Positions 92 to 11,232 of a DNA stretch of 64,000 bases are shown in pieces (positions within the stretch are counted from its first letter, which is position 1; each line of letters starts with the position of its first letter). A model generated the notes under the pieces. The model was not told the DNA's origin and made no database searches. It saw nothing but the letters and a program-made list of their open reading frames with translations. A program made the translations under genes and the position numbers. The DNA comes from Rhodoblastus acidophilus (GTDB lineage Bacteria; Pseudomonadota; Alphaproteobacteria; Rhizobiales; Beijerinckiaceae), in NCBI RefSeq assembly GCF_025961575.1, contig NZ_JAOQNX010000028.1:1-64000 (forward strand), written 5' to 3'.

Positions 92-496
92 CTAAGAAAC
101 CTGCGCCGCGCGGCGGATGGATTCGGCGCACAGGTCGGTGGCGTGGGTGGCGCGCCAAAAAGCGCGCGGTCCCGGTTCGGATTGCGGCGCAGGGGCGTGT
201 CGGGTGCAAAGCCCGGCCCTCCCCCACCATTGCAGCGGCTTGTCGCCGCGGTCGGTCGGGTCCAATCCGCCTTTGGGACTGCGCCAATAGCGGCACTCGG
301 CGCAGACCGCGAGATCGACCGCCGAGCCCTGGACCAGGAACTCCCCGCAGCCCTGGCCGCCATGCGTGGTCGGCCAATGCGCCACGCTGTCGGACACATA
401 AGCTGGCGTCGGCGCGTGGCGCTGGCAGGAGCCCTCGTTCGGCCGGGCCATTTTCCAGTAGACGCACGCCGCGCATTTTTCAGCCTCGCCGCTCAT
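92..496 (-). CDS. Cysteine-rich protein with two copies of a four-Cys module
   Basis: A 134-aa protein of unknown function. The ATG at 496 overlaps the stop of the outer membrane factor gene by 4 nt (ATGA), which suggests translational coupling and fixes the start. Cysteines sit at 8, 11, 24, 50 and again at 65, 68, 97, 123. Each half has CxxC followed by x-Y-W, then G-x-C-x-R-H-A-P-x-P, then W-x2-T-H-x4-C, with exactly 25 residues between the third and fourth Cys in both halves, so the gene is an internal duplication. No signal peptide or membrane segment is seen, so it is probably cytoplasmic. The pattern could bind Zn or an Fe-S cluster (loosely like HiPIP spacing); this is inference. It is the last gene of the leftward efflux operon. 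Confidence 0.8.
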   Translation of the reverse strand: MSGEAEKCAACVYWKMARPNEGSCQRHAPTPAYVSDSVAHWPTTHGGQGCGEFLVQGSAVDLAVCAECRYWRSPKGGLDPTDRGDKPLQWWGRAGLCTRHAPAPQSEPGPRAFWRATHATDLCAESIRRAAQVS

Positions 497-1983
497 TTCC
501 CCGCTTCCTCCCCCGCTTGCGCCGCCTCGCCGGGATCCTGTCCCTGCCAACCGAGAACGGCAATGTTCCGGTCCTCCTTCGGTTCCGGCGACGGCGCCTG
601 CCCGGTCCATCCCCCGCCGAGCGCGAGCGCGAGATTGGCGTATTCGCCGAGAAGCTGGGTCTGCACGGTCAGCTGCGCGCGCTGGGCGTCCAGCGCGGCG
701 GTCTGGGCGGTGATCAGGTCCAGCGACGACACGGCGCCGTCCTTGTAGAGGCTCATGGACATGTCGAGCGCGCGCTGGGCCGCCTGCGCGGCGGTCGCCA
801 GCGCCTTGTTCTGCTCGCCAAGCAGCTTGATCGCGGAACTCGCGTTCTCCACCTCCTGATAGGCGGCGAGCACCGAGGCCTTGTAGGCGGCGGCGGCGGC
901 GTTGAAATCGGCGCGCGCGATATCCAGGTCGGCCTGCCGCCGCCCGCCGTCGAACACCGGCGCAACCACGTTCGGCCCGTAGCTCCACAAGGAATTGTGG
1001 AAGTTCATCAGATCGAGATTGGTCGATTGCGTTCCGCCGGAGAGCGCAAGATAGAAGCGCGGCAGGAAGTCGGCCTTGGCGACGCCGATCCCCTGGTTGG
1101 CGGCGAACAGCAACCGCTCGTTCGCGGCGACATCGGGCCGGCGCAGCAGCAGCACGGCGGGCGCGACGCGCGGCGGACGAGGGAAGGCCGGCTGTTTCGG
1201 CTCCGGCTTGATCCTGAACAGGGACGGGGTTTCGCCGACAATGGCGCCGATGGCGTTCTCGAGCACCGACCGGGTCTGGGCGATCGAGGCGGCCAGCGCC
1301 TGCGCGGTGGCGAGCTGCACCTTGGCGCGCTCGACGTCGATCGGCGGCGCGATGTTCTGCTTCAGCCGCTCCTGCGTCAGCTTGAGCGCTTCGCCATAGA
1401 CGCCGATGGTGCGGGTGAGCAGATCATATTGGGCGTCGGCGCCGCGCAGCGCGATATAGGCGCGGGCGAGGCTCGCATGCAGCGAGATGCGGCTTGCGGC
1501 GAGCAGATCGTCATTGGCCTGGGCGCCGGCCTGGGCGGCCTTGACCTGGTCGCGCACCCGTCCCCAAAGGTCGATTTCCCAGGACAATTGGCCGAGCAAC
1601 TGGTTGGCGCCGTAATAGGTCGGCTGGTTCGCCGAGCGCAACGGCCGGTGCTGCGACTGCTTGTTGAAGCTGAGCGCCTCGTTCGATCCGACCTGCGGAT
1701 AGAAGGCGGAGGCGTTCAGATCGAGGATCGCCCGGGCGCGCTCGTAGCGCGCGAGCGCGATGGCGTAATCCGGATTGTCGGACTCGATGCGCGCTTCCAG
1801 CCGGTTGAGCTCGGCGCTGTGGAAGTCCCGCCACCAGCTTTCGCTCAACTGGCCCGCGCGGGCGGGGGTCGCCGTCTTGTACTTCGAGGGAACCGCGACG
1901 TCCGGCACATGATATTGCGGCGCGAAATCGCATGCGCCCAGCGCGAGGGGGGCGCAGAGCGCGAGAAGGCCGAGCCGCTTCAT
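493..1983 (-). CDS. RND efflux outer membrane lipoprotein, NodT/OprM family
   Basis: A 496-aa outer membrane factor of the TolC/OprM class, forming the exit duct of a tripartite pump. The N-terminus is a lipoprotein signal with lipobox LGAC (Cys17). The sequence then has the two long helical-repeat halves of the outer membrane efflux family, including the Y-H-V-P-D-V start of the mature protein and the conserved LLRRPDVAANERLL segment near residue 280. The length is normal for NodT-type factors. The start overlaps the adaptor gene by 4 nt (ATGA) and the stop overlaps the Cys-rich gene. It works with the adaptor and permease encoded just upstream. The substrate cannot be told from sequence. 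Confidence 0.93.
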   Translation of the reverse strand: MKRLGLLALCAPLALGACDFAPQYHVPDVAVPSKYKTATPARAGQLSESWWRDFHSAELNRLEARIESDNPDYAIALARYERARAILDLNASAFYPQVGSNEALSFNKQSQHRPLRSANQPTYYGANQLLGQLSWEIDLWGRVRDQVKAAQAGAQANDDLLAASRISLHASLARAYIALRGADAQYDLLTRTIGVYGEALKLTQERLKQNIAPPIDVERAKVQLATAQALAASIAQTRSVLENAIGAIVGETPSLFRIKPEPKQPAFPRPPRVAPAVLLLRRPDVAANERLLFAANQGIGVAKADFLPRFYLALSGGTQSTNLDLMNFHNSLWSYGPNVVAPVFDGGRRQADLDIARADFNAAAAAYKASVLAAYQEVENASSAIKLLGEQNKALATAAQAAQRALDMSMSLYKDGAVSSLDLITAQTAALDAQRAQLTVQTQLLGEYANLALALGGGWTGQAPSPEPKEDRNIAVLGWQGQDPGEAAQAGEEAGK

Positions 1984-3155
1984 TTCGCCGCGCTCGCGGC
2001 GGGGGCTGCGGCGGCGCCGATGCGGACCTCATCGCCCTCGGCGAGGGTTTCCGGCGGATTGTTGATGACCTGGTCCTCAAGCTTGAGCCCCGAGGCCACC
2101 AACACTTCCGCGCCAAAATCCTTGGCGATGGCCACCGGCTTGAACCGCACCCGATTGTCGGGACCGACCGTCGCCACCCGCATGCCGTGCTCATCGAAGG
2201 ACAAGGCGCTCGACACGATGCGCAGGGCGCTGGGGTCGGTGGGAATCTCGAAATGCACCGTCGCGAAGGAGCCGGGCAGAAGGGCGCTGTCCGGATTGGG
2301 CGTGTCCATCTCGACCAGCAGGCTGCCGGTCAGCGCGCCGATGGCGTTGGAGGTGGTGGCGATGGTCGTGCTGAACGTGCGGCCCGGCCATTGCGGCGTG
2401 GTGAAGGTCGCGTTCATGCCCGGCTTGAGCTGCGCGGAATAGACCTGCGGCACATTCACGTAGACGCGGACCTCGTGGATGTCGGCGACCTTGAACGTGG
2501 GCTCGCCGGTCTGGCTGGGCGCGACATAGGAGCCGATGTCGATATTGCGCGCCGTCACCACGCCCTCAAAGGGCGCGGTGATCTTGGCGAAGGCTTTTTG
2601 CGCCTTGAGCCGGTCGAGATTGGCCGCGGCCGCGCCGAGATCGGCCTGCCGCACCTGCTCGTCGCTCGCCTTCTCGTCGGCCGACTGTTTCGACACCGCC
2701 GAGGAATTGCGAAGCGCGGACCAGCGCTGCGACGTCACCTTGGCGAGCTCCAGCGCCGCCTTGGCCTTGGACAGCTTCTCGCGCGCTTCGGACAGGCGCT
2801 CGTCCAGTTCGGGCGTGTCGATCACCGCGAGAACGTCGTTCTTCTTCACCTCGGCGCCGATGTCCTTGGACCAGCTGGCGACATAGCCGGACACCTGCGC
2901 GTGGATCGACGCCTCGTACCAGGCCGCGATCCGGCCGGGCAGGCTCAGCGCCTGCGGCTTCAGGTCGATGTGCGGGTGGATGACCGAGACATAGGGAACG
3001 GCGCGGGCGCGCGTCCATGTCGAGAGCTCCGCCTGTTGCGCGCGCCGGTGCAACACGGACAGGCCGACATAGGCGCTCAGCGCCAGCACGACCAGAAGCA
3101 ACAGCCAACGGGCCCTCGAGCGGCGCTTCGGCGGAGCGGCGGTGTCTTCAACCAT
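1980..3155 (-). CDS. RND efflux periplasmic adaptor (HlyD/MFP family)
   Basis: A 391-aa membrane fusion protein that bridges permease and outer membrane factor in the periplasm. The chosen ATG (3155) begins MVEDTAAPPKRRSRARW, a short cytoplasmic tail followed by a single hydrophobic anchor at about 17-35; in-frame codons further upstream lie inside the permease gene. A split lipoyl/barrel-sandwich segment (PGRIAAWYEASIHAQVSGYV) is followed by a long alpha-hairpin (about 110-190), the second barrel half and a beta-barrel domain. The gene overlaps the permease stop by 8 nt and the NodT start by 4 nt. An Ala-rich tail ends the protein. Confidence 0.92.
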   Translation of the reverse strand: MVEDTAAPPKRRSRARWLLLLVVLALSAYVGLSVLHRRAQQAELSTWTRARAVPYVSVIHPHIDLKPQALSLPGRIAAWYEASIHAQVSGYVASWSKDIGAEVKKNDVLAVIDTPELDERLSEAREKLSKAKAALELAKVTSQRWSALRNSSAVSKQSADEKASDEQVRQADLGAAAANLDRLKAQKAFAKITAPFEGVVTARNIDIGSYVAPSQTGEPTFKVADIHEVRVYVNVPQVYSAQLKPGMNATFTTPQWPGRTFSTTIATTSNAIGALTGSLLVEMDTPNPDSALLPGSFATVHFEIPTDPSALRIVSSALSFDEHGMRVATVGPDNRVRFKPVAIAKDFGAEVLVASGLKLEDQVINNPPETLAEGDEVRIGAAAAPAASAAK

Positions 3156-6100
3156 GACGCGGCTCCGTCTCGATTTGCGGCGCCGCGTCGTCCGCACGCG
3201 ACTTGCGGGAATGAACCATGGAAAAGACCACAGGCACGAAGATGAGGGTGGCGATGGTGGCCAAAATAAGGCCACCGATCACGGCGCGCCCGAGCGGCGC
3301 ATTCTGTTCGGCGCTCAGCGCCATGGGCGCCATGCCGATGATCATGGCGAGCGCCGTCATCAGCACCGGACGGAAGCGTCCGACGCCCGCCTCCAAAGCG
3401 GCTTGGACGGCGGTGCTGCCCTCGGCCAGCTGGGCGCGGGCGAAGCTCACCACCAGAATGGAGTTTGCGGTCGCGACGCCCATGCACATGATCGCGCCGG
3501 TCAGGGCCGGCACCGACAGGGTGGTGTGGGTGGCGAACAGCATCCAGGCCACACCCGCCAGCGCGGCGGGCAGAGCGGTGACGATGACGAAGGGATCGAG
3601 CCAGGATTGGAAATTGACCACGATCAGCAGGTAGATCAACACGATCGCCAGCGCCAGGCCGGCATAGAGCTGGCTATAGGCGGAATTCATCGTGTCGGTC
3701 TGGCCGCGCAGAACGATCAGCGTGCCCCTCGGTTTTTCCGCGTTAAGTTCGGCGATGATTTTCCGGATGTCGGCGGAAACGGCGCCGAGGTCGCGGCCGT
3801 TGGTCGTCGCGTAAATGTCGATCACCGGCTGCACCGAATAATGGGAGACGACAGCGCTGCTGTTGGCGCGGCTGATGCTGGCGACGGCGCCGAGGATCTG
3901 CGAGGAATTCCCTTGCGAGGCCGGAATGCGCGCGAGATCGCTCAGGCCCTGCATCCAATATTGCGGCGTCTGCGCCACCACAGGATAGGACACGCCATTC
4001 TTCGGATTGAGCCAGAACACCGGATTGGTCTGGATCGAACCGGCGAGGCTGATCTGCAGCGAGGTCGCGACATCCTTTTCGGTGACCGCGAGCTGGTTGG
4101 CGTGGATGCGGTCGACGTTCACCTTGATGGTCGGCTGGTCCGCGGGCTGCTGGATGCGGGCGTCCGCAACCCCGGTGACCAAGGCGATGCGTTTCAACAA
4201 TTTGTTGGCGAGGATGCGGTTGCCGGCGGCGTTGCTGCCGACCACCTGCACGTCGATGGGCGCGGGCAAGCCGAAATTGAGGATCTGGGTGACGATGTCG
4301 GCGGGCAGGAAGGAGAAGGTCACGCTGGGAAACAGCTCCGGCAGCTTTTCGCGCAATTTCTCGACCAGCGCTTCGCTCTCCGTCTCCTTTTCGGGTTGCA
4401 GCGTGATCAGCACGTCCGCGTCCGCCGTTCCGATCGTGCCGGAATTGCCGTAGGCGACGTTGATGCCGCTGATCGGCATGCCGATATTGTCGACGATGGA
4501 GGCGACGGACTCCGGGCCGGCGACAGTGCGGATCGCCTCCTCGACCTGGCTCAGAAGCCGGCCGGTTTCCTCGATGCGCAGACCCGTCGGCCCGCGCACG
4601 TGCAGCTTGATCTGCGCGGTTTCCACCGTCGGAAAGAAATTCTGTCCGAGCAAGGGGACAAGCAGCAGCGACGCCAGGGAGAAGCCGACGAAGGACAGGA
4701 CGAAACGCCAGCGCAGCGCGATGGCGGCGGTGAGCGTCCGGGCGTACGCGTCGCGCAGCGCGCCGAAGACGCGCTCGAACCCGTGCTGGAACTTGCCGAA
4801 TATGGTGCGCGGCGGCGCGTCGGGGTCGTGGGCGTGGCCGCGAAGCAGATAGTTCGCCATGGTCGGCACCAGCGTGCGCGACAGCAGGTAGGAGCCGATC
4901 AGCGCGAACACCACCGCCTTGGCCATGGGCAGGAACAGATAGCCGGAGACGCCGCCGAGGCCGAACATGGGGACGAACACGATGCAGATGCACAACAGCG
5001 AGACCGTCGCGGGAATGACGATCTGGCGGGCGCCGTCCATGATCGCGACCTCGATCTCCTTCTTCTGCTCCAGCTGGTAATTGATGTTCTCGATGGTGAC
5101 GGTGGCGTCGTCGACGAGAATGCCGACCGCCAGCGCCAGACCGCCGAGCGTCATGACATTGATGTTTTCGCCGGTGGCGGCGAGCAGCGCCACGGAGGTC
5201 AGGATCGCCAGGGGAATCGAAACGATGATGATCAGGGTCGAGCGCCAGCTCCCCAGGAAGATCAGGATCATCATGCCGGTGAGGGCGGCGGCGAGGACGC
5301 CCTCGAAGATCACGGAATGCACCGCCGATTCGACGAAGGCGGACTGGTCGCCGACCAGCGCCAGCTTGACCTCGGGCGGGACGATCTCGCGCAAGCGCGG
5401 CATCAGAGTCTTGACGCCGTCGATCACGTCAATGGTGGAGGCCGAGCCCGCCTTGACGATGGTCATCAACACCGCATTCGAGCCGTCGACGCGCACCAGA
5501 TTGATCTGCGGCGGCGAGGAATCGTGGACATAGGCGACGTCGCCGATCCGCACCGTCGCGCCATTGACCGTCTTGATCGGCAGGTCGTTCAGCGCCTCGA
5601 CGCTCTCGGGCGAGCCATTGAGATTGACGACATATTCCTTGGAGCCGACCTTCTGGGTCCCGACCGGCGTGATGACGTCCTGCTGGCCGATCGCCGCGAC
5701 CACCTCGGCGGCCGTGATGTTGTAGGAGCGCATCTTGTCCTGATCGGCGTCGATCTGGACCTGCCGGACCTTGCCCCCATAAGGCGAGGGCACGGCGGCG
5801 CCGGCCACCGTGGCGAGCTGCGGCCGGATGAAGTTCTGGGCGTAATCGAAGATCTGCGACTGGGACATGGTGTCGCTCGACACCGCGATCTGGATGACCG
5901 GCACGCTCGAGGCGTTGAAACTCAGGACATAGGGCGGCGTGATGCCGGGCGGCAGCAGTTTCAGCACCGTCTGCGAAGCCGCCGAAATCTGCGCCAGCGC
6001 GGCATTGATGTTGACCGACGGCTGGAAGAAGATTTTGACCACGCCATAGCCGGACATCGATTGCGATTCGACATGCTCGATGTCGTTGACCACGGAGCTG

Positions 6101-6315
6101 ATGGCGCGCTCGTAGAAATAGACGACGCGGCCGGACATGTCTTCCGGCGGCAATCCATTGTAAGTCCAGACCACGGCGACCACGGGAATCCGGATCGCGG
6201 GGAAGATGTCCGTCGGGGTGCGCACCCAAGACATCACGCCAGCGATGACGATCAACATCGCCATCACCACGAAAGTATAGGGCCGGTTCAGCGCAATGCG
6301 AACGAGAGCGAGCAT
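3148..6315 (-). CDS. RND-family efflux permease
   Basis: A 1055-aa proton-driven inner membrane pump of the AcrB/HAE1-like superfamily. Twelve membrane segments and two large periplasmic loops fit the full family length. TM4 carries the paired acidic residues of the proton relay (GILVDDATVTIEN, Asp402-Asp403). In TM10 the position of the AcrB lysine (Lys940) is a threonine: the motif reads MGVATANS near residue 949. This is a substitution I associate with a particular RND subfamily, so proton coupling may differ. The gene lies 68 nt after the sensor kinase stop and overlaps the adaptor gene by 8 nt. Substrate unknown; a role in drug or metabolite export under the linked two-component system is inference. 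Confidence 0.94.
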   Translation of the reverse strand: MLALVRIALNRPYTFVVMAMLIVIAGVMSWVRTPTDIFPAIRIPVVAVVWTYNGLPPEDMSGRVVYFYERAISSVVNDIEHVESQSMSGYGVVKIFFQPSVNINAALAQISAASQTVLKLLPPGITPPYVLSFNASSVPVIQIAVSSDTMSQSQIFDYAQNFIRPQLATVAGAAVPSPYGGKVRQVQIDADQDKMRSYNITAAEVVAAIGQQDVITPVGTQKVGSKEYVVNLNGSPESVEALNDLPIKTVNGATVRIGDVAYVHDSSPPQINLVRVDGSNAVLMTIVKAGSASTIDVIDGVKTLMPRLREIVPPEVKLALVGDQSAFVESAVHSVIFEGVLAAALTGMMILIFLGSWRSTLIIIVSIPLAILTSVALLAATGENINVMTLGGLALAVGILVDDATVTIENINYQLEQKKEIEVAIMDGARQIVIPATVSLLCICIVFVPMFGLGGVSGYLFLPMAKAVVFALIGSYLLSRTLVPTMANYLLRGHAHDPDAPPRTIFGKFQHGFERVFGALRDAYARTLTAAIALRWRFVLSFVGFSLASLLLVPLLGQNFFPTVETAQIKLHVRGPTGLRIEETGRLLSQVEEAIRTVAGPESVASIVDNIGMPISGINVAYGNSGTIGTADADVLITLQPEKETESEALVEKLREKLPELFPSVTFSFLPADIVTQILNFGLPAPIDVQVVGSNAAGNRILANKLLKRIALVTGVADARIQQPADQPTIKVNVDRIHANQLAVTEKDVATSLQISLAGSIQTNPVFWLNPKNGVSYPVVAQTPQYWMQGLSDLARIPASQGNSSQILGAVASISRANSSAVVSHYSVQPVIDIYATTNGRDLGAVSADIRKIIAELNAEKPRGTLIVLRGQTDTMNSAYSQLYAGLALAIVLIYLLIVVNFQSWLDPFVIVTALPAALAGVAWMLFATHTTLSVPALTGAIMCMGVATANSILVVSFARAQLAEGSTAVQAALEAGVGRFRPVLMTALAMIIGMAPMALSAEQNAPLGRAVIGGLILATIATLIFVPVVFSMVHSRKSRADDAAPQIETEPRHG

Positions 6316-6383: not shown

Positions 6384-7739
6384 TTAAACTTTAAACTCCG
6401 TGGCCTGCGCCAGGATGAAGCGCGCGCCGGGCGCATTGTCCTCGATGTCCAAAACCCAGCCGTGCAAGCGCGCGATCGACTCGACAATGCTCAGGCCCAG
6501 GCCGGAGCCCTCCTCCTCGCCTTGCTTGAGGCGAACGAACCGGCGAAAAATGTCGCGCTTCTTCGCCACGGGCACGCCGCGGCCATTGTCGCTGACGGTG
6601 ATCTCCGCCCTGCCCCCCGATTCGCGCGCCGCGACGGTCACCTTCCCGCCGCGCGGGGTGAATTTCAAGGCGTTGTCGATCAGATTGGCCAAGGCCTCGC
6701 GCAAGAGGTCGGGGTCGGCGCGACGCACCAGCGGCGCGGGCGCTTCGACCAGCAAAGCCACGCCCTTGGCTGCGGCCAGCGGCGCGTAAAAATCGTGCAG
6801 CTCAAGGCAAAGCGCGGCGATGTCGGCGTCGCGGAACCCGGACAGGCGATGCTCCGCCTCGATGGCCGAGATTCGCTGCAGCGCCGCGATCGACTTCATG
6901 GCGCGATCGAGCTGCCGCAGCGCGGCCTGCACCGGCGGGCGCAGACGATCGTCCCTGGGCGCGTCCTTGAGCGCGTCCTCGAGCGTCGCTCTGACGTTGG
7001 CGACGGGTGCGCGCAGGTCGTGGGCGATGTTGTCGCCCACCGTCGCCATTTGCGCGAGCAGGCGCTCGATCTCGTCGAGCATGGCGTTGACCGAGACCAC
7101 CAGGTCGTCAAGTTCGCGGAACCCCGTGGCGACGGGCAAGCGGGCGCGCAGGTCGCCATTGACGATCACGCTGATGCTGCGGTCGACCGCGCGCAGCCGG
7201 GCGGCGGCGCGCCGGGCGGCGAAGAGCCCGAGCAGCAGCGCGCCCACGGCGAGGGGGACGATGCCGAAGGCCAGCGCCTTGAATAGAAACCCGCGCAGCG
7301 CGACGGCTTCGTCGAGGCTGCGCCCGAGCACGATCACCGATCCGTCGGAGCGCCGGCGCGCCACCAGAATGGTCGGGGTCGCTGGCGCCGCGGCGCTGGC
7401 CCGGAACTCGGCGAAATAGCGGACTTTTCCGTCCGCGGGAATGTCGGGTCGGGTGTCGAGATTGCCGAACGCCAGCGCCCCCGCGGGATCGTAGAGGGCG
7501 ACATATTGCAGCCGGCGAAAATCCCGGGTGAGGCGCAAGTCGAGCGACCGCCGCAAGCGCGCGTCGTCCGCGGCGGCCGCCTTCTCCGCCTCGTCGGCGA
7601 AGACATGGGTGAGTTCGGCGACCCAGGCGCGGGTCGCCGTTTCGTAGATCACCACGAAGACCAGGCTGCTGAGCAGGAAAATGGCGAAGGCGAAGGCGCC
7701 GGCGAAGCGCAGCGGGGTCGATTGCGCGAGGCTACGCAT
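6384..7739 (-). CDS. Two-component sensor histidine kinase
   Basis: A 451-aa membrane sensor. TM1 (about 13-32) and TM2 (about 155-174) flank a roughly 120-residue periplasmic domain of no recognised type, then a HAMP linker, a HisKA dimerisation domain with phospho-acceptor His240 (NIAHDLRAPVANVR), and an HATPase domain with N-box (NLIDNALKFTP), G1 (DNGRGVP) and G2 (GSGLGLSIVES) motifs. It overlaps the response regulator gene by 8 nt, so the two are a cognate pair. The RND permease gene starts 68 nt downstream, which makes the pump genes the obvious target or co-regulated partner. The signal is unknown. Confidence 0.94.
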   Translation of the reverse strand: MRSLAQSTPLRFAGAFAFAIFLLSSLVFVVIYETATRAWVAELTHVFADEAEKAAAADDARLRRSLDLRLTRDFRRLQYVALYDPAGALAFGNLDTRPDIPADGKVRYFAEFRASAAAPATPTILVARRRSDGSVIVLGRSLDEAVALRGFLFKALAFGIVPLAVGALLLGLFAARRAAARLRAVDRSISVIVNGDLRARLPVATGFRELDDLVVSVNAMLDEIERLLAQMATVGDNIAHDLRAPVANVRATLEDALKDAPRDDRLRPPVQAALRQLDRAMKSIAALQRISAIEAEHRLSGFRDADIAALCLELHDFYAPLAAAKGVALLVEAPAPLVRRADPDLLREALANLIDNALKFTPRGGKVTVAARESGGRAEITVSDNGRGVPVAKKRDIFRRFVRLKQGEEEGSGLGLSIVESIARLHGWVLDIEDNAPGARFILAQATEFKV

Positions 7740-8418
7740 GGTGATCGAGCCTGAACCCCTCGCCGCGCAGATTGACGATCAGACGCGATTCGCCGGGACC
7801 TTCGAGTTTCTGGCGCAGATTGCGGATATGGACGTCGACCACATTGGTGTTGGCCGGGAACTTGTAATTCCAGACCGTCTCCAGCAGCATCTGGCGCGTG
7901 ACCAGCTGGCCCGGGCGCAGCATGAAAAATTCGAGCAGTTGGAATTCGCGCGGCACAAGGGCGATCTCGCGCTGGTTGCGCCAAACTTTTCGCGCGATCC
8001 GATCCATGGCGAGAGCGCCCACGGCAAGCCGCGAAGCCCCGGAATCGGCGAAGCGCCGCACCAGCGCGTCGACCCGCGCGGAAAATTCCGACATGGCGAA
8101 AGGCTTGACCAGATAATCGTCGCCGCCCGCCCGCAGACCGGCGACGCGGTCGTCGACCGCGCTCATGCCGCTCATCATCAGGACCGGCGTCCGGTCGCCG
8201 CCGGCGCGAAGCCGCTGCACCAACTCAAGTCCGTCGGCGCCCTTGAGCTTGCGGTCCATCACCAGCAGCAGCGCCCGGCCTTCCCGCGCGGCGACCAGGG
8301 CTTCCGCGCCATCTTCCGAATGCACGACGCGATAGCGCTCGGCCAATTCGCGTTCAATCGCCAGAAACAGGTCGCTTTCGTCCTCGCAGACGTAAATCGC
8401 CCTTTCAGTCCCATTCAT
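7732..8418 (-). CDS. OmpR/PhoB-family response regulator
   Basis: A 228-aa DNA-binding response regulator. The receiver domain has the acidic pocket (CEDES, 11-15), phospho-acceptor Asp55 in LLVMDRKLKG, the switch Ser/Thr in LMMSGMS and Lys105 in YLVKPF. The C-terminal half is a winged helix ending with the typical VDVHIRNLRQKL and GEGFRL motifs. Its ATG overlaps the sulP stop by 4 nt (ATGA) and its stop overlaps the sensor kinase start by 8 nt, so all three genes are translationally coupled. It probably controls its own cluster; no operator could be assigned from sequence. Confidence 0.95.
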   Translation of the reverse strand: MNGTERAIYVCEDESDLFLAIERELAERYRVVHSEDGAEALVAAREGRALLLVMDRKLKGADGLELVQRLRAGGDRTPVLMMSGMSAVDDRVAGLRAGGDDYLVKPFAMSEFSARVDALVRRFADSGASRLAVGALAMDRIARKVWRNQREIALVPREFQLLEFFMLRPGQLVTRQMLLETVWNYKFPANTNVVDVHIRNLRQKLEGPGESRLIVNLRGEGFRLDHHA

Positions 8419-10175
8419 CGCGCCGCTTCTCCCGGAGCATTGCGTTCTTCGTGCAGGTTTACGCCATTTTCATGCACGCCCACCAGTTGGCGCAAGGCTT
8501 CATCGACACTGTGGAAAATACGCGCCTCGCCGCTCACGCCAGGGTCGTCGCCGGAGCCTGGCGGGCGGGCGAGCGCCGCCACCACGCCGGAGGCGCGCAG
8601 GGCCGCCTGCGCCCGCAGCGACTCAAGGCGCGCAATGGCGAAATCGCAGCCGAGAGCGTGGCAATGCGCGATCGCCGCCGCCAAAGCCCGCGCCGCCGTG
8701 TAATCGATGGCGGCGATGGCGGAGGCCTCTAGAACGATGAGCCGCATCGGCTGGTCCTGGGCCACCGCTTGCAATTGCATCCGGAACCGGTCGGCGTTGA
8801 GATAGGACAGCGGCGCCTGAAACCCGACCACCGCGACCCCGTCCAGCGTCTCGCCGGGGCAAGTGGGATTGCGCGGCCACCACACGGTTTCGCCGGGCAG
8901 GCGCTCGAAGGTTTGCAGATCGGTCTCGGTGGTGGACCAGACGCCGTGGATCAGCGACAGGATGATCGCCAGCGCCACGCCCATCTGCACCGGCAGCAGC
9001 ACCACCGCCGCCGCCGTGACCGCCATCAGCAGGAATTCCGGCCGCGAGCGCCGGAAAATGTCGCGCATGTCGCGCAGCCTGAAAATGCGGCCGGCGATGA
9101 ACAGCAGGATGGCGGCGAGCGACGCTTCGGGCGTGTGGCTGAGGAAGCTTTCGCCATAGGCCGCCAGTAGCGCCAGCGCCGCCGCGGCGACCAGTCCCGC
9201 AAGCTGCGTCCGCCCGCCCGTCGCCTCGACCATGGCGGTTCTGGGCGGACTGGAATTGACCGGAAAGGCGCCAAAAAGGCCCGCGAGCAGGCCGCCCGCG
9301 CCCAGGCCGAGAAAATCCCGGTTGATGTCGGAAGCCCCGTCCGGCGCCCCATAGGCGCGCGACACCGCCGCGCTCTGCACCATGATGACAAGCGTCAGCA
9401 GGACAGCGAGGCCGACCAGCCTGAAGATTTGCTCGACGCCGCCGTCGGGCGGGGCGAATTTCGGCCAGGCCACGGGAAAAGCGCCGATCACCGGCAGCGC
9501 GGCGGGATCGAGGTCGAACCACAGGACGGCGAAGGTGGCCGCGCCCGCGGCCAGCAAGGCGGCAGGCAGCCGGGGCGCCAGGGACTCGCAGGCGATGATG
9601 AAGGCGAGGCTGACGAGGCCCAGGGCCAACGCCAGCGGCTTGACCTCGTGGATCCGCGCCGCGATCTCCCCGACCCGCTGCACCGCATCGCCCGAACCCG
9701 CGGGCAGGCCCAGCAGCGCCGGCGCTTGCGACAGCACGATATGGACGGCTATGCCCGCCAGAAACCCGGTCAGCACGGGAATCGACAGCAGATTGGCGAC
9801 CCAGCCGGCGCGAAACAGCCCCGCCCCGCACATCATGGCCCCGACGAGATAAGCGAGCAGCGCCGCGAGCATGGCGTAATCGGCGCCGCCCGCCGGGACG
9901 ATCAGGGCGAGCGCGGCGGCGAAAATGGGCGTGATCGTCGAATCCGCGCCCACCGACATCAGGCGGTTGGCGCCGAACAGGGCGAAGCCGAGCGTTCCCG
10001 CGATGAAGGCGAAAAAGCCGATCGAGGGGGCGAAGCCGCCGAGCCGCGCCGTCGCCATTTGTTCGGGCGCGGCGATGGCGGCAAGCGTCAGGCCCGCGAG
10101 CAGATCGGCGCGCCAAAAGACGCCGACGCCGCTCAGGCCTCGAAACAACCAGCGGTTCTTGTCCGTTTCACTCAT
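8415..10175 (-). CDS. SulP-family anion permease with STAS domain
   Basis: A 586-aa inner membrane transporter of the SulP/SLC26 family, whose members carry sulfate, bicarbonate or other anions. The start is taken as MSETDKNRW (ATG 10175), because upstream codons would run into the region facing glk. The N-terminal 400 or so residues hold 10-14 hydrophobic segments, including the LLAGLTLAAIAAPEQMATARLGG signature region. A C-terminal STAS domain is at about 450-560, with DYTAARAL replacing the usual D-S/T-G motif. The stop overlaps the response regulator start (ATGA). Placing a SulP gene at the head of a two-component/RND operon is unusual. The transported anion cannot be inferred. Confidence 0.9.
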   Translation of the reverse strand: MSETDKNRWLFRGLSGVGVFWRADLLAGLTLAAIAAPEQMATARLGGFAPSIGFFAFIAGTLGFALFGANRLMSVGADSTITPIFAAALALIVPAGGADYAMLAALLAYLVGAMMCGAGLFRAGWVANLLSIPVLTGFLAGIAVHIVLSQAPALLGLPAGSGDAVQRVGEIAARIHEVKPLALALGLVSLAFIIACESLAPRLPAALLAAGAATFAVLWFDLDPAALPVIGAFPVAWPKFAPPDGGVEQIFRLVGLAVLLTLVIMVQSAAVSRAYGAPDGASDINRDFLGLGAGGLLAGLFGAFPVNSSPPRTAMVEATGGRTQLAGLVAAAALALLAAYGESFLSHTPEASLAAILLFIAGRIFRLRDMRDIFRRSRPEFLLMAVTAAAVVLLPVQMGVALAIILSLIHGVWSTTETDLQTFERLPGETVWWPRNPTCPGETLDGVAVVGFQAPLSYLNADRFRMQLQAVAQDQPMRLIVLEASAIAAIDYTAARALAAAIAHCHALGCDFAIARLESLRAQAALRASGVVAALARPPGSGDDPGVSGEARIFHSVDEALRQLVGVHENGVNLHEERNAPGEAAR

Positions 10176-10275
10176 GCGCGCCCCCGCGCCAATCTGGCCC
10201 AGGCCGGCGGCGAAGGAAAGTGTGCGCGCGACGCGCTTTGGCGCTAGACTTAGGCTGACGCGCAGGAGGCTTTTC

Positions 10276-11232
10276 GTGGCGGCCAACGGCTCTGAAATCA
10301 TCGCTGTCGCCGATATCGGCGGCACCCACGCCCGTTTCGCGCTGGCCGGGATCGACCGCGACGCCGGGCCGGAACTCGGCGAGGCCGTGGTGTTGCGCAC
10401 CGCCGACTATCCCGATCTCGCCTCCGCTTACGAAGCCTTCGCGGACCAGATCGAGGGCGCGCGGCCCCGGCGCGCCAGCTTCGCCCTCGCCTGCCCAATC
10501 CGAGGCGAAACGCTGAAATTCACCAACAATCCCTGGACCTTGCGCCCGAAAACGCTCGCGGCGGAGCTGGGGCTCGACGAGGTGCGGCTGCTCAACGATT
10601 TCGGCGCCGTCGCCCATGCGGCGGCCAAGGCCGATCTGTCCTGTTTTTCGCACATTTGCGGACCGGATCGGCCGCCGCGCTCCGGGGTGATCTCGATTCT
10701 CGGACCGGGCACGGGCCTGGGCGTCGCGCAATTGATCCTCGACGCCGATGACCATCGGGTGGTCGAAACCGAGGGCGGCCACATCGACTTCGCGCCGCAC
10801 GACGCCTTCGAGGACGGGCTGCTGGTGCGCCTGCGGGAAAAATTCGGCCGCGTCTCGATCGAACGCGTCGTGTCGGGGCCGGGGCTCGAGGAAATTTTCG
10901 CCGCGCTCTCGGACGCGGAGCCTCCCGACGCCCCCGCTCTCTGGGCCGCGGCCATCGCCGGAACCGACGATGTCGCCCGCGCCGCCCTGGAAAGATTCTG
11001 CGCGTGCCTGGGCGCGGTCGCGGGCGATCTCGCCCTGGTCCATGGCGCCGAAGCCGTCATTCTCGCCGGGGGGCTCGCGCCGCGCATCGCCCCGCTGCTC
11101 GCGGAGTCGCGTTTCGCCGAACGTTTCGTCGCCAAGGGGCGCTATCGCGAGATGATGGCGAACATTCCCATCTGGATGATCGTCCACCCGCAGCCCGGCC
11201 TGTTCGGCGCGGCGGCGGCGTTCCGCCCATGA
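10276..11232 (+). CDS. glk: Glucokinase
   Basis: A 318-aa ATP-dependent glucose kinase of the bacterial Glk family (PF02685 type), acting in the cytoplasm at the entry to glycolysis or the Entner-Doudoroff path. I chose GTG 10276 because a caggagg ribosome site lies just upstream and the protein then begins close to the phosphate-1 loop VADIGGTHARFAL. Other family motifs: LLNDFGAVAHA (catalytic Asp), ILGPGTGLGVAQL (ATP binding) and TEGGHIDFAP. E. coli Glk is 321 aa. It is divergent from sulP with a 100-bp gap and convergent with ppa. Confidence 0.95.
   Translation: MAANGSEIIAVADIGGTHARFALAGIDRDAGPELGEAVVLRTADYPDLASAYEAFADQIEGARPRRASFALACPIRGETLKFTNNPWTLRPKTLAAELGLDEVRLLNDFGAVAHAAAKADLSCFSHICGPDRPPRSGVISILGPGTGLGVAQLILDADDHRVVETEGGHIDFAPHDAFEDGLLVRLREKFGRVSIERVVSGPGLEEIFAALSDAEPPDAPALWAAAIAGTDDVARAALERFCACLGAVAGDLALVHGAEAVILAGGLAPRIAPLLAESRFAERFVAKGRYREMMANIPIWMIVHPQPGLFGAAAAFRP

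Follow-up and report, generated by a model that had tools for sequence, protein, structure and literature searches.

The last gene of an efflux-pump operon in Rhodoblastus acidophilus encodes a small protein built from two four-cysteine modules, and we are close to certain of this duplicated cysteine module and its linkage to the pump taken together. The protein is probably HiPIP-like in kind and is met here in a new context, that of an efflux operon. The features that we describe lie at one end of the window, by which we mean the whole stretch of 64,000 nucleotides that was analysed:

92..496, minus strand: gene of the two-module protein, ATG at 496, stop at 94-92, 134 amino acids (from the translation, 26 homologues and pN<pS)
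347..475, minus strand: N-terminal four-Cys module, C8-x2-C11-x12-C24-x25-C50 (invariant Cys, homology to a single-module family)
128..304, minus strand: C-terminal four-Cys module, C65-x2-C68-x28-C97-x25-C123 (invariant Cys, homology to the N half and to the single-module family)
493..496, minus strand: four-base ATGA overlap between the start of the module gene and the stop of the outer-membrane channel gene (from the sequence and the ORF ends)
493..1983, minus strand: outer-membrane channel (OMP) gene, NodT family (TIGR01845 over its cut-off, 313.5 bits)
1980..3155, minus strand: periplasmic adaptor (MFP) gene (TIGR01730 over its cut-off)
3148..6315, minus strand: RND permease gene, TM4 motif GILVDDATVTIEN with an HAE1-like DD (RND models matched, all below cut-off)
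6384..7739, minus strand: sensor histidine kinase gene (best model cztS_silS_copS, below cut-off)
7732..8418, minus strand: response regulator gene (OmpR/PhoB-type models, below cut-off)

The frame at 92-496 is a real gene, as seen from its invariant cysteines, from pN values that lie below pS, and from the four-nucleotide overlap of its ATG with the stop of the OMP gene. Its product, translated from the minus strand, begins MSGEAEKCAACVYWKMARPNEGSCQRHAPTPAYVSDSVAHWPTTHGGQGCGEF and carries cysteines at positions 8, 11, 24 and 50 and again at 65, 68, 97 and 123. A preliminary description had listed the motifs CxxCxYW, GxCxRHAPxP and WxxTHx4C for both halves and equal distances between the third and fourth cysteine; the motifs are present twice, and the gaps C24-C50 and C97-C123 are each exactly 25 residues, with unequal spacing between the second and third cysteine (12 residues in the N half versus 28 in the C half). 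That description had also seen no export signal, and rightly, because the first cysteine already stands at residue 8 and leaves no space for one. The sequence shows no hydrophobic membrane segment, and searches with Pfam and NCBIfam models found no DNA-binding domain. A genome search finds one copy of the gene in this genome; the best named relative of the protein is in Rhodoblastus sp. 17X3 (locus L002).

Homologues were sought in 298 genomes of one bacterial family. At a threshold of E <= 0.001, 28 of these have a match to the protein, which is full-length in 24, and it is from these 24 genomes that the 26 homologues of the conservation alignment were drawn. All eight cysteines are invariant in this alignment, so that the free variation of cysteines named earlier as an argument against a metal site did not occur; the further conserved positions listed are W14, W71, W91, G77, P80, A94, R99, G109 and D121. 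The 25-residue spacing is kept in 24 of 26 N halves and in every C half. The preliminary description had read the repeated Cys, Trp, His and Pro positions as two metal or Fe-S centres. The two four-Cys centres stand, whereas the histidines do not belong to them: H27 is retained in 14, H45 in 13, H100 in 8 and H118 in 17 of the 26 homologues. The variable histidines are therefore out as general ligands, and the centres, going by the conservation of cysteines only, are probably Cys-ligated. Synonymous change outweighs replacement change in all five homologue pairs that were compared (pN/pS 0.13/0.54, 0.11/0.35, 0.006/0.034, 0.21/0.67 and 0.22/0.68).

The two halves align with each other with a Smith-Waterman score of 76, where 2000 shuffles reach at most 57, and shuffles of the same protein with the cysteines held fixed at most 51; the profiles of the two halves over the 26 homologues match with an hhalign E of 1.9e-16. 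Judged by these comparisons, the halves are true, homologous duplicates. Both also match a family of single-module proteins (E 1.8e-18 for the N half, 7.8e-11 for the C half). These relatives, about 60-100 amino acids long and sharing the pattern C-x2-C-x-[FWY]..G-x-C..P..P...WCG, were found by profile searches in further families of the order, in other parts of the class and in a few members of the phylum beyond it (loci L062, L064-L068, L070-L095 and L100-L108); no model in Pfam or NCBIfam covers them.

Several observations relate these modules to HiPIPs. The order C-x2-C-xn-C-xn-C, a HiPIP trait, occurs in both halves and is invariant in the 26 homologues. When the single-module profile was aligned with 15 genuine HiPIPs fetched as a reference set, all four cysteines fell in register at 82% probability, and the score of 31.4 exceeds that of column shuffles with fixed cysteines (13.7 +/- 2.2, maximum 25.0, n=150). 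The N half scored above its own shuffles, though over 15 columns only, and the C half alone did not. The PDB profile matches were HiPIPs and MasC. We also tallied weak, sub-threshold Pfam matches over 54 members of the two-module and single-module families. None of these matches reached a Pfam cut-off, and the most frequent was HIPIP, in 15 of 54 members, with the further HiPIP-fold families HPIP_like, 4HPAD_g_N and BssC_TutF weakly matched in two members each. HIPIP (PF01355, gathering score 22 bits) gave no match for the window's own protein; its best E-values, below the gathering score, were 0.0035 among the other two-module proteins and 0.0021 among the single-module ones. The HpdC models PF18671 and PF18524 gave weak matches, below cut-off, in two members each, and NF033716 reached at best 0.086 among the members, also below its cut-off.

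Two other assignments were considered and rejected. The ZF-HD dimerisation domain matched weakly in two or three members, with E-values of 0.16 (PF04770) and 0.04 (TIGR01566) for the window's protein, or 12.8 and 14.4 bits against cut-offs of 27 and 51. The matches to a daptide-type RiPP model (NF041807, best 9e-4, in 4 of 26) we take to be a coincidence of cysteine-rich sequence, inconsistent with a duplicated protein of 134 amino acids.

AlphaFold, given an alignment of 54 rows that included 26 single-module relatives, returned a confident model (pLDDT 91.5, pTM 0.80); the model from the 26 close homologues only (pLDDT 50.7) was not used. A Foldseek search of the confident model against 350,542 PDB chains gave one sensible match, 2y8n_B, which is listed as a glycyl radical enzyme. 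The match spans 127 columns over both halves and is weak (E 0.11, probability 0.41, global TM 0.26-0.37); true HiPIPs were not among the fold matches. We take this chain to be HpdC, the small subunit of 4-hydroxyphenylacetate decarboxylase, which had been a noted candidate before the fold search. Each of these lines is weak, but their sum speaks for a double module of HiPIP-like kind, a fold that we consider quite probable for this protein. The resemblance to HiPIPs that was first suspected from cysteine spacing is thus better supported than could then be known, through the profile alignment, the Pfam tally and a predicted fold whose sole sensible PDB match is a HiPIP-type double-cluster protein. 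For the cofactor, the fold and the conservation of cysteines only point to [4Fe-4S], which we put slightly above an even chance.

Zn may take the place of Fe-S; the two are not distinguishable from sequence alone. Each module would then be a structural Zn(Cys)4 site, and the protein a zinc-stabilised cytoplasmic scaffold or adaptor for the pump or for some other protein, without redox chemistry. Four-Cys sites often bind zinc, and zinc families do appear among the weak Pfam matches, though scattered (zf-CW in 5, mono-CXXC in 3 and ZF-HD_dimer in 2 of the 54 members). However, HiPIP-fold families are the commonest of these matches, real HiPIPs align with the four cysteines in register, and the one sensible fold match is to a protein that carries two [4Fe-4S] clusters. 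Typical zinc ribbons, moreover, carry a second CxxC, whereas the last cysteine of the modules is single (WCG). We regard the zinc scaffold as rather unlikely, and it is the strongest of the alternatives.

HiPIP-like accessory subunits with CX2CXnCXnC and a [4Fe-4S] cluster are established, and HiPIP-like folds have been described for HPAD-gamma, MASS-beta, MASS-gamma and BSS-beta (PMC12358834). HPAD-gamma consists of two HiPIP-like halves and binds two [4Fe-4S] clusters (PMC12358834). The likeness of HpdC, or HPAD-gamma (PDB 2Y8N, 2YAJ; PF18671, PF18524), to the two-module protein lies in this architecture of a small cytoplasmic protein with two halves, which in the two-module protein are probably HiPIP-like, in the fold match over both halves, and in the presence of both its Pfam families among the weak matches. 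However, there is no sequence similarity over a cut-off; the two-module protein is larger, has the fixed x25 spacing and is encoded in an efflux operon, and no glycyl-radical enzyme adjoins its gene, whose neighbours are the OMP, MFP, RND, kinase and regulator genes. The MASS-beta, MASS-gamma, BSS-beta and BSS-gamma subunits (BssC_TutF, PF08201) are likewise cytoplasmic HiPIP-like accessory subunits with CX2CXnCXnC, and MASS-beta, whose ligands are Cys 32, 35, 51 and 86 (PMC12358834), shares the long last cysteine gap. These subunits differ in holding one cluster per chain and in having a glycyl-radical enzyme as partner, and PF08201 is matched, below cut-off, by two of the 54 members only. 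HiPIPs themselves (PF01355) share the order CxxCx[FYW] ... GxC ... P ... C and align by their four cysteines with the single-module profile. In contrast to the two-module protein, the HiPIPs fetched have an N-terminal export signal (RR...FLK or SRR...) and a single module; the two-module protein also has a longer spacing between its third and fourth cysteine, and no match over the Pfam cut-off. To our knowledge, cytoplasmic HiPIP-like proteins are otherwise known only as subunits of glycyl-radical enzymes.

The genes upstream of the module gene encode an RND efflux system, a sensor kinase and a response regulator. The four-base ATGA overlap makes translational coupling of the module gene to the OMP gene likely, and the same -4 overlap is found in L037, L039, L044, L045, L046 and L051. 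The MFP gene probably starts at the ATG at 3155 rather than at the GTG at 3275, from its overlap with the end of the RND gene. We take the TM4 motif of the permease to be of the HAE1 type, found in drug pumps, and not a metal-pump motif; NCBIfam permease models, including those for metal pumps, all remained below cut-off. A SulP-type transporter gene (8415-10400, minus strand) overlaps the response regulator gene by four nucleotides and is kept upstream in L034, L036, L037 and L039; the operon may therefore begin at the SulP gene.

The coupling to an efflux operon, noted earlier for this one locus, holds across the family. In 25 of 26 loci the two-module gene directly follows pump genes, and in 23 of the 26 it directly follows the OMP gene on the same strand, at a spacing of -14 to +109 nucleotides; of the remaining three, one follows the MFP gene, one an RND gene, and one lies 240 nucleotides past a kinase gene. 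The last (L043:2163-2585, plus strand, on a 4.5-kb contig of G193) has no pump genes between kinase and module, an arrangement that may be an assembly effect or reflect deletion of the pump. Genes further downstream of the module differ between lineages, whereas the pump genes are constant. At several module loci neither a kinase nor a regulator gene lies close by.

In a midpoint-rooted tree of 63 RND proteins, sampled from one family, the 24 pumps that bear a module all fall into two supported groups of 16 and 20 rows, together with six module-less and six undetermined pumps. Among 22 other pumps none bears a module; five distant module-less rows attach beside the two groups. The module label changes nine times on this tree, compared to 19.5 times in shuffles, none of which (0/500) gave as few changes. 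One row labelled as lacking the module, L052_15214, is actually the first RND of a two-RND operon that ends in a module. Because some pumps of this clade have all three of the RND, MFP and OMP genes but no module (L165, L167), the module gene is an optional, though frequent, companion of one pump clade. One gain followed by several losses would fit this distribution, as read from a midpoint root and a one-family sample. In one genome (G033), a pump close to that of the window sits elsewhere, beside a second module gene (L048).

In the genus of the window, two genomes carry a permease remnant. At L037:11667-11909 (minus strand) and L039:5864-6091 (plus strand) the permease gene has been reduced in frame to an ORF of 80 or 75 amino acids that joins the first and last membrane segments, and the MFP, OMP and module genes are intact. 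Since the module is kept in both, partners other than the permease, such as the adaptor, the channel or the kinase, have to be considered.

In glycyl-radical enzymes, the HiPIP-like domains of accessory subunits sit at the partner's surface, over 30 A away from the active site of that partner (PMC12358834). By analogy with these domains, we propose that the two-module protein is an Fe-S accessory subunit. Each module would most likely bind a single [4Fe-4S] cluster through its four invariant cysteines, with conserved aromatic residues forming the pocket. The protein would be made as the last product of the operon, in the window by the likely translational coupling, and would bind a partner on the cytoplasmic side of the efflux system. 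Its clusters would report redox or Fe-S status and so tune or stabilise the assembly or activity of the pump, and would not serve in a chain of electron transport. We consider the explanation as a whole, a cytoplasmic accessory protein of one RND clade with two tandem HiPIP-like modules whose clusters tune the pump by redox or Fe-S status, to be evenly balanced between right and wrong; the regulatory role, which draws on the analogy, is a hypothesis that we rate well below an even chance. Against the explanation stand the pumps of the same clade that do without the module and the two genomes that keep the module beside a permease remnant. In the fullest version, an RND pump would have its own cytoplasmic HiPIP-like subunit with two [4Fe-4S] clusters, which gates assembly or activity by redox or Fe-S status and stems from a large unannotated family of cytoplasmic HiPIP-like modules in Proteobacteria and their phages; this is more doubtful still. 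A literature search found no paper linking HiPIP-like proteins with RND pumps, and no RND pump known to us has an Fe-S accessory protein. The linkage across a bacterial family suggests an undescribed iron-sulfur partner of the pump; should the cofactor be confirmed, a dedicated gene would tie efflux to the redox or iron-sulfur state of the cell.

An alternative explanation is that the protein is a small electron carrier for a cytoplasmic enzyme, and that it sits in the efflux operon because it and the pump answer to the same stress, not because the two are physical partners. HiPIPs are electron carriers, relatives occur as free single modules, an Acetobacter plasmid carries a two-module gene with no pump nearby, and the module persists in the two genomes with a remnant permease. 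However, no oxidoreductase recurs as a neighbour, and it is the pump genes that stay constant as the genes downstream vary; we therefore consider this explanation unlikely. The preliminary description had suggested metal or redox sensing or buffering. A metal buffer or metallochaperone that passes metal to the pump, in keeping with the eight cysteines and with a linked kinase most like heavy-metal sensor kinases (below cut-off), is very improbable given the HAE1-type DD motif of the permease and metal-pump models below cut-off, the exactly four fixed cysteines per site, as in a permanent and not an exchangeable site, and the several module loci without a nearby kinase or regulator.

The phage family phrog_15838 is matched by 19 of 29 bacterial single-module relatives (best 4.6e-7), and predicted phage proteins match the AlphaFold model by structure with a probability near 1.0. 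A tblastn search of phage records with the window's protein gave no match, and scans of viral contigs with alignment A1 and the plasmid two-module protein gave no relative. The phage proteins and their bacterial single-module relatives have one module each and no known efflux context, in contrast to the two-module protein of the efflux operon. They form a widespread family of small proteins with no known function, for which a confirmed cofactor would provide the first clue to a role.

Within the samples searched, two-module proteins occur in the window's own family only and on one plasmid of Acetobacter pasteurianus, pAC258-29 (NC_019337.1). There the homologue (L096:8812-9426, plus strand) is flanked by mobF and by type IV secretion genes and has no pump beside it; the annotated CDS (9143-9340) covers part of its open frame only.
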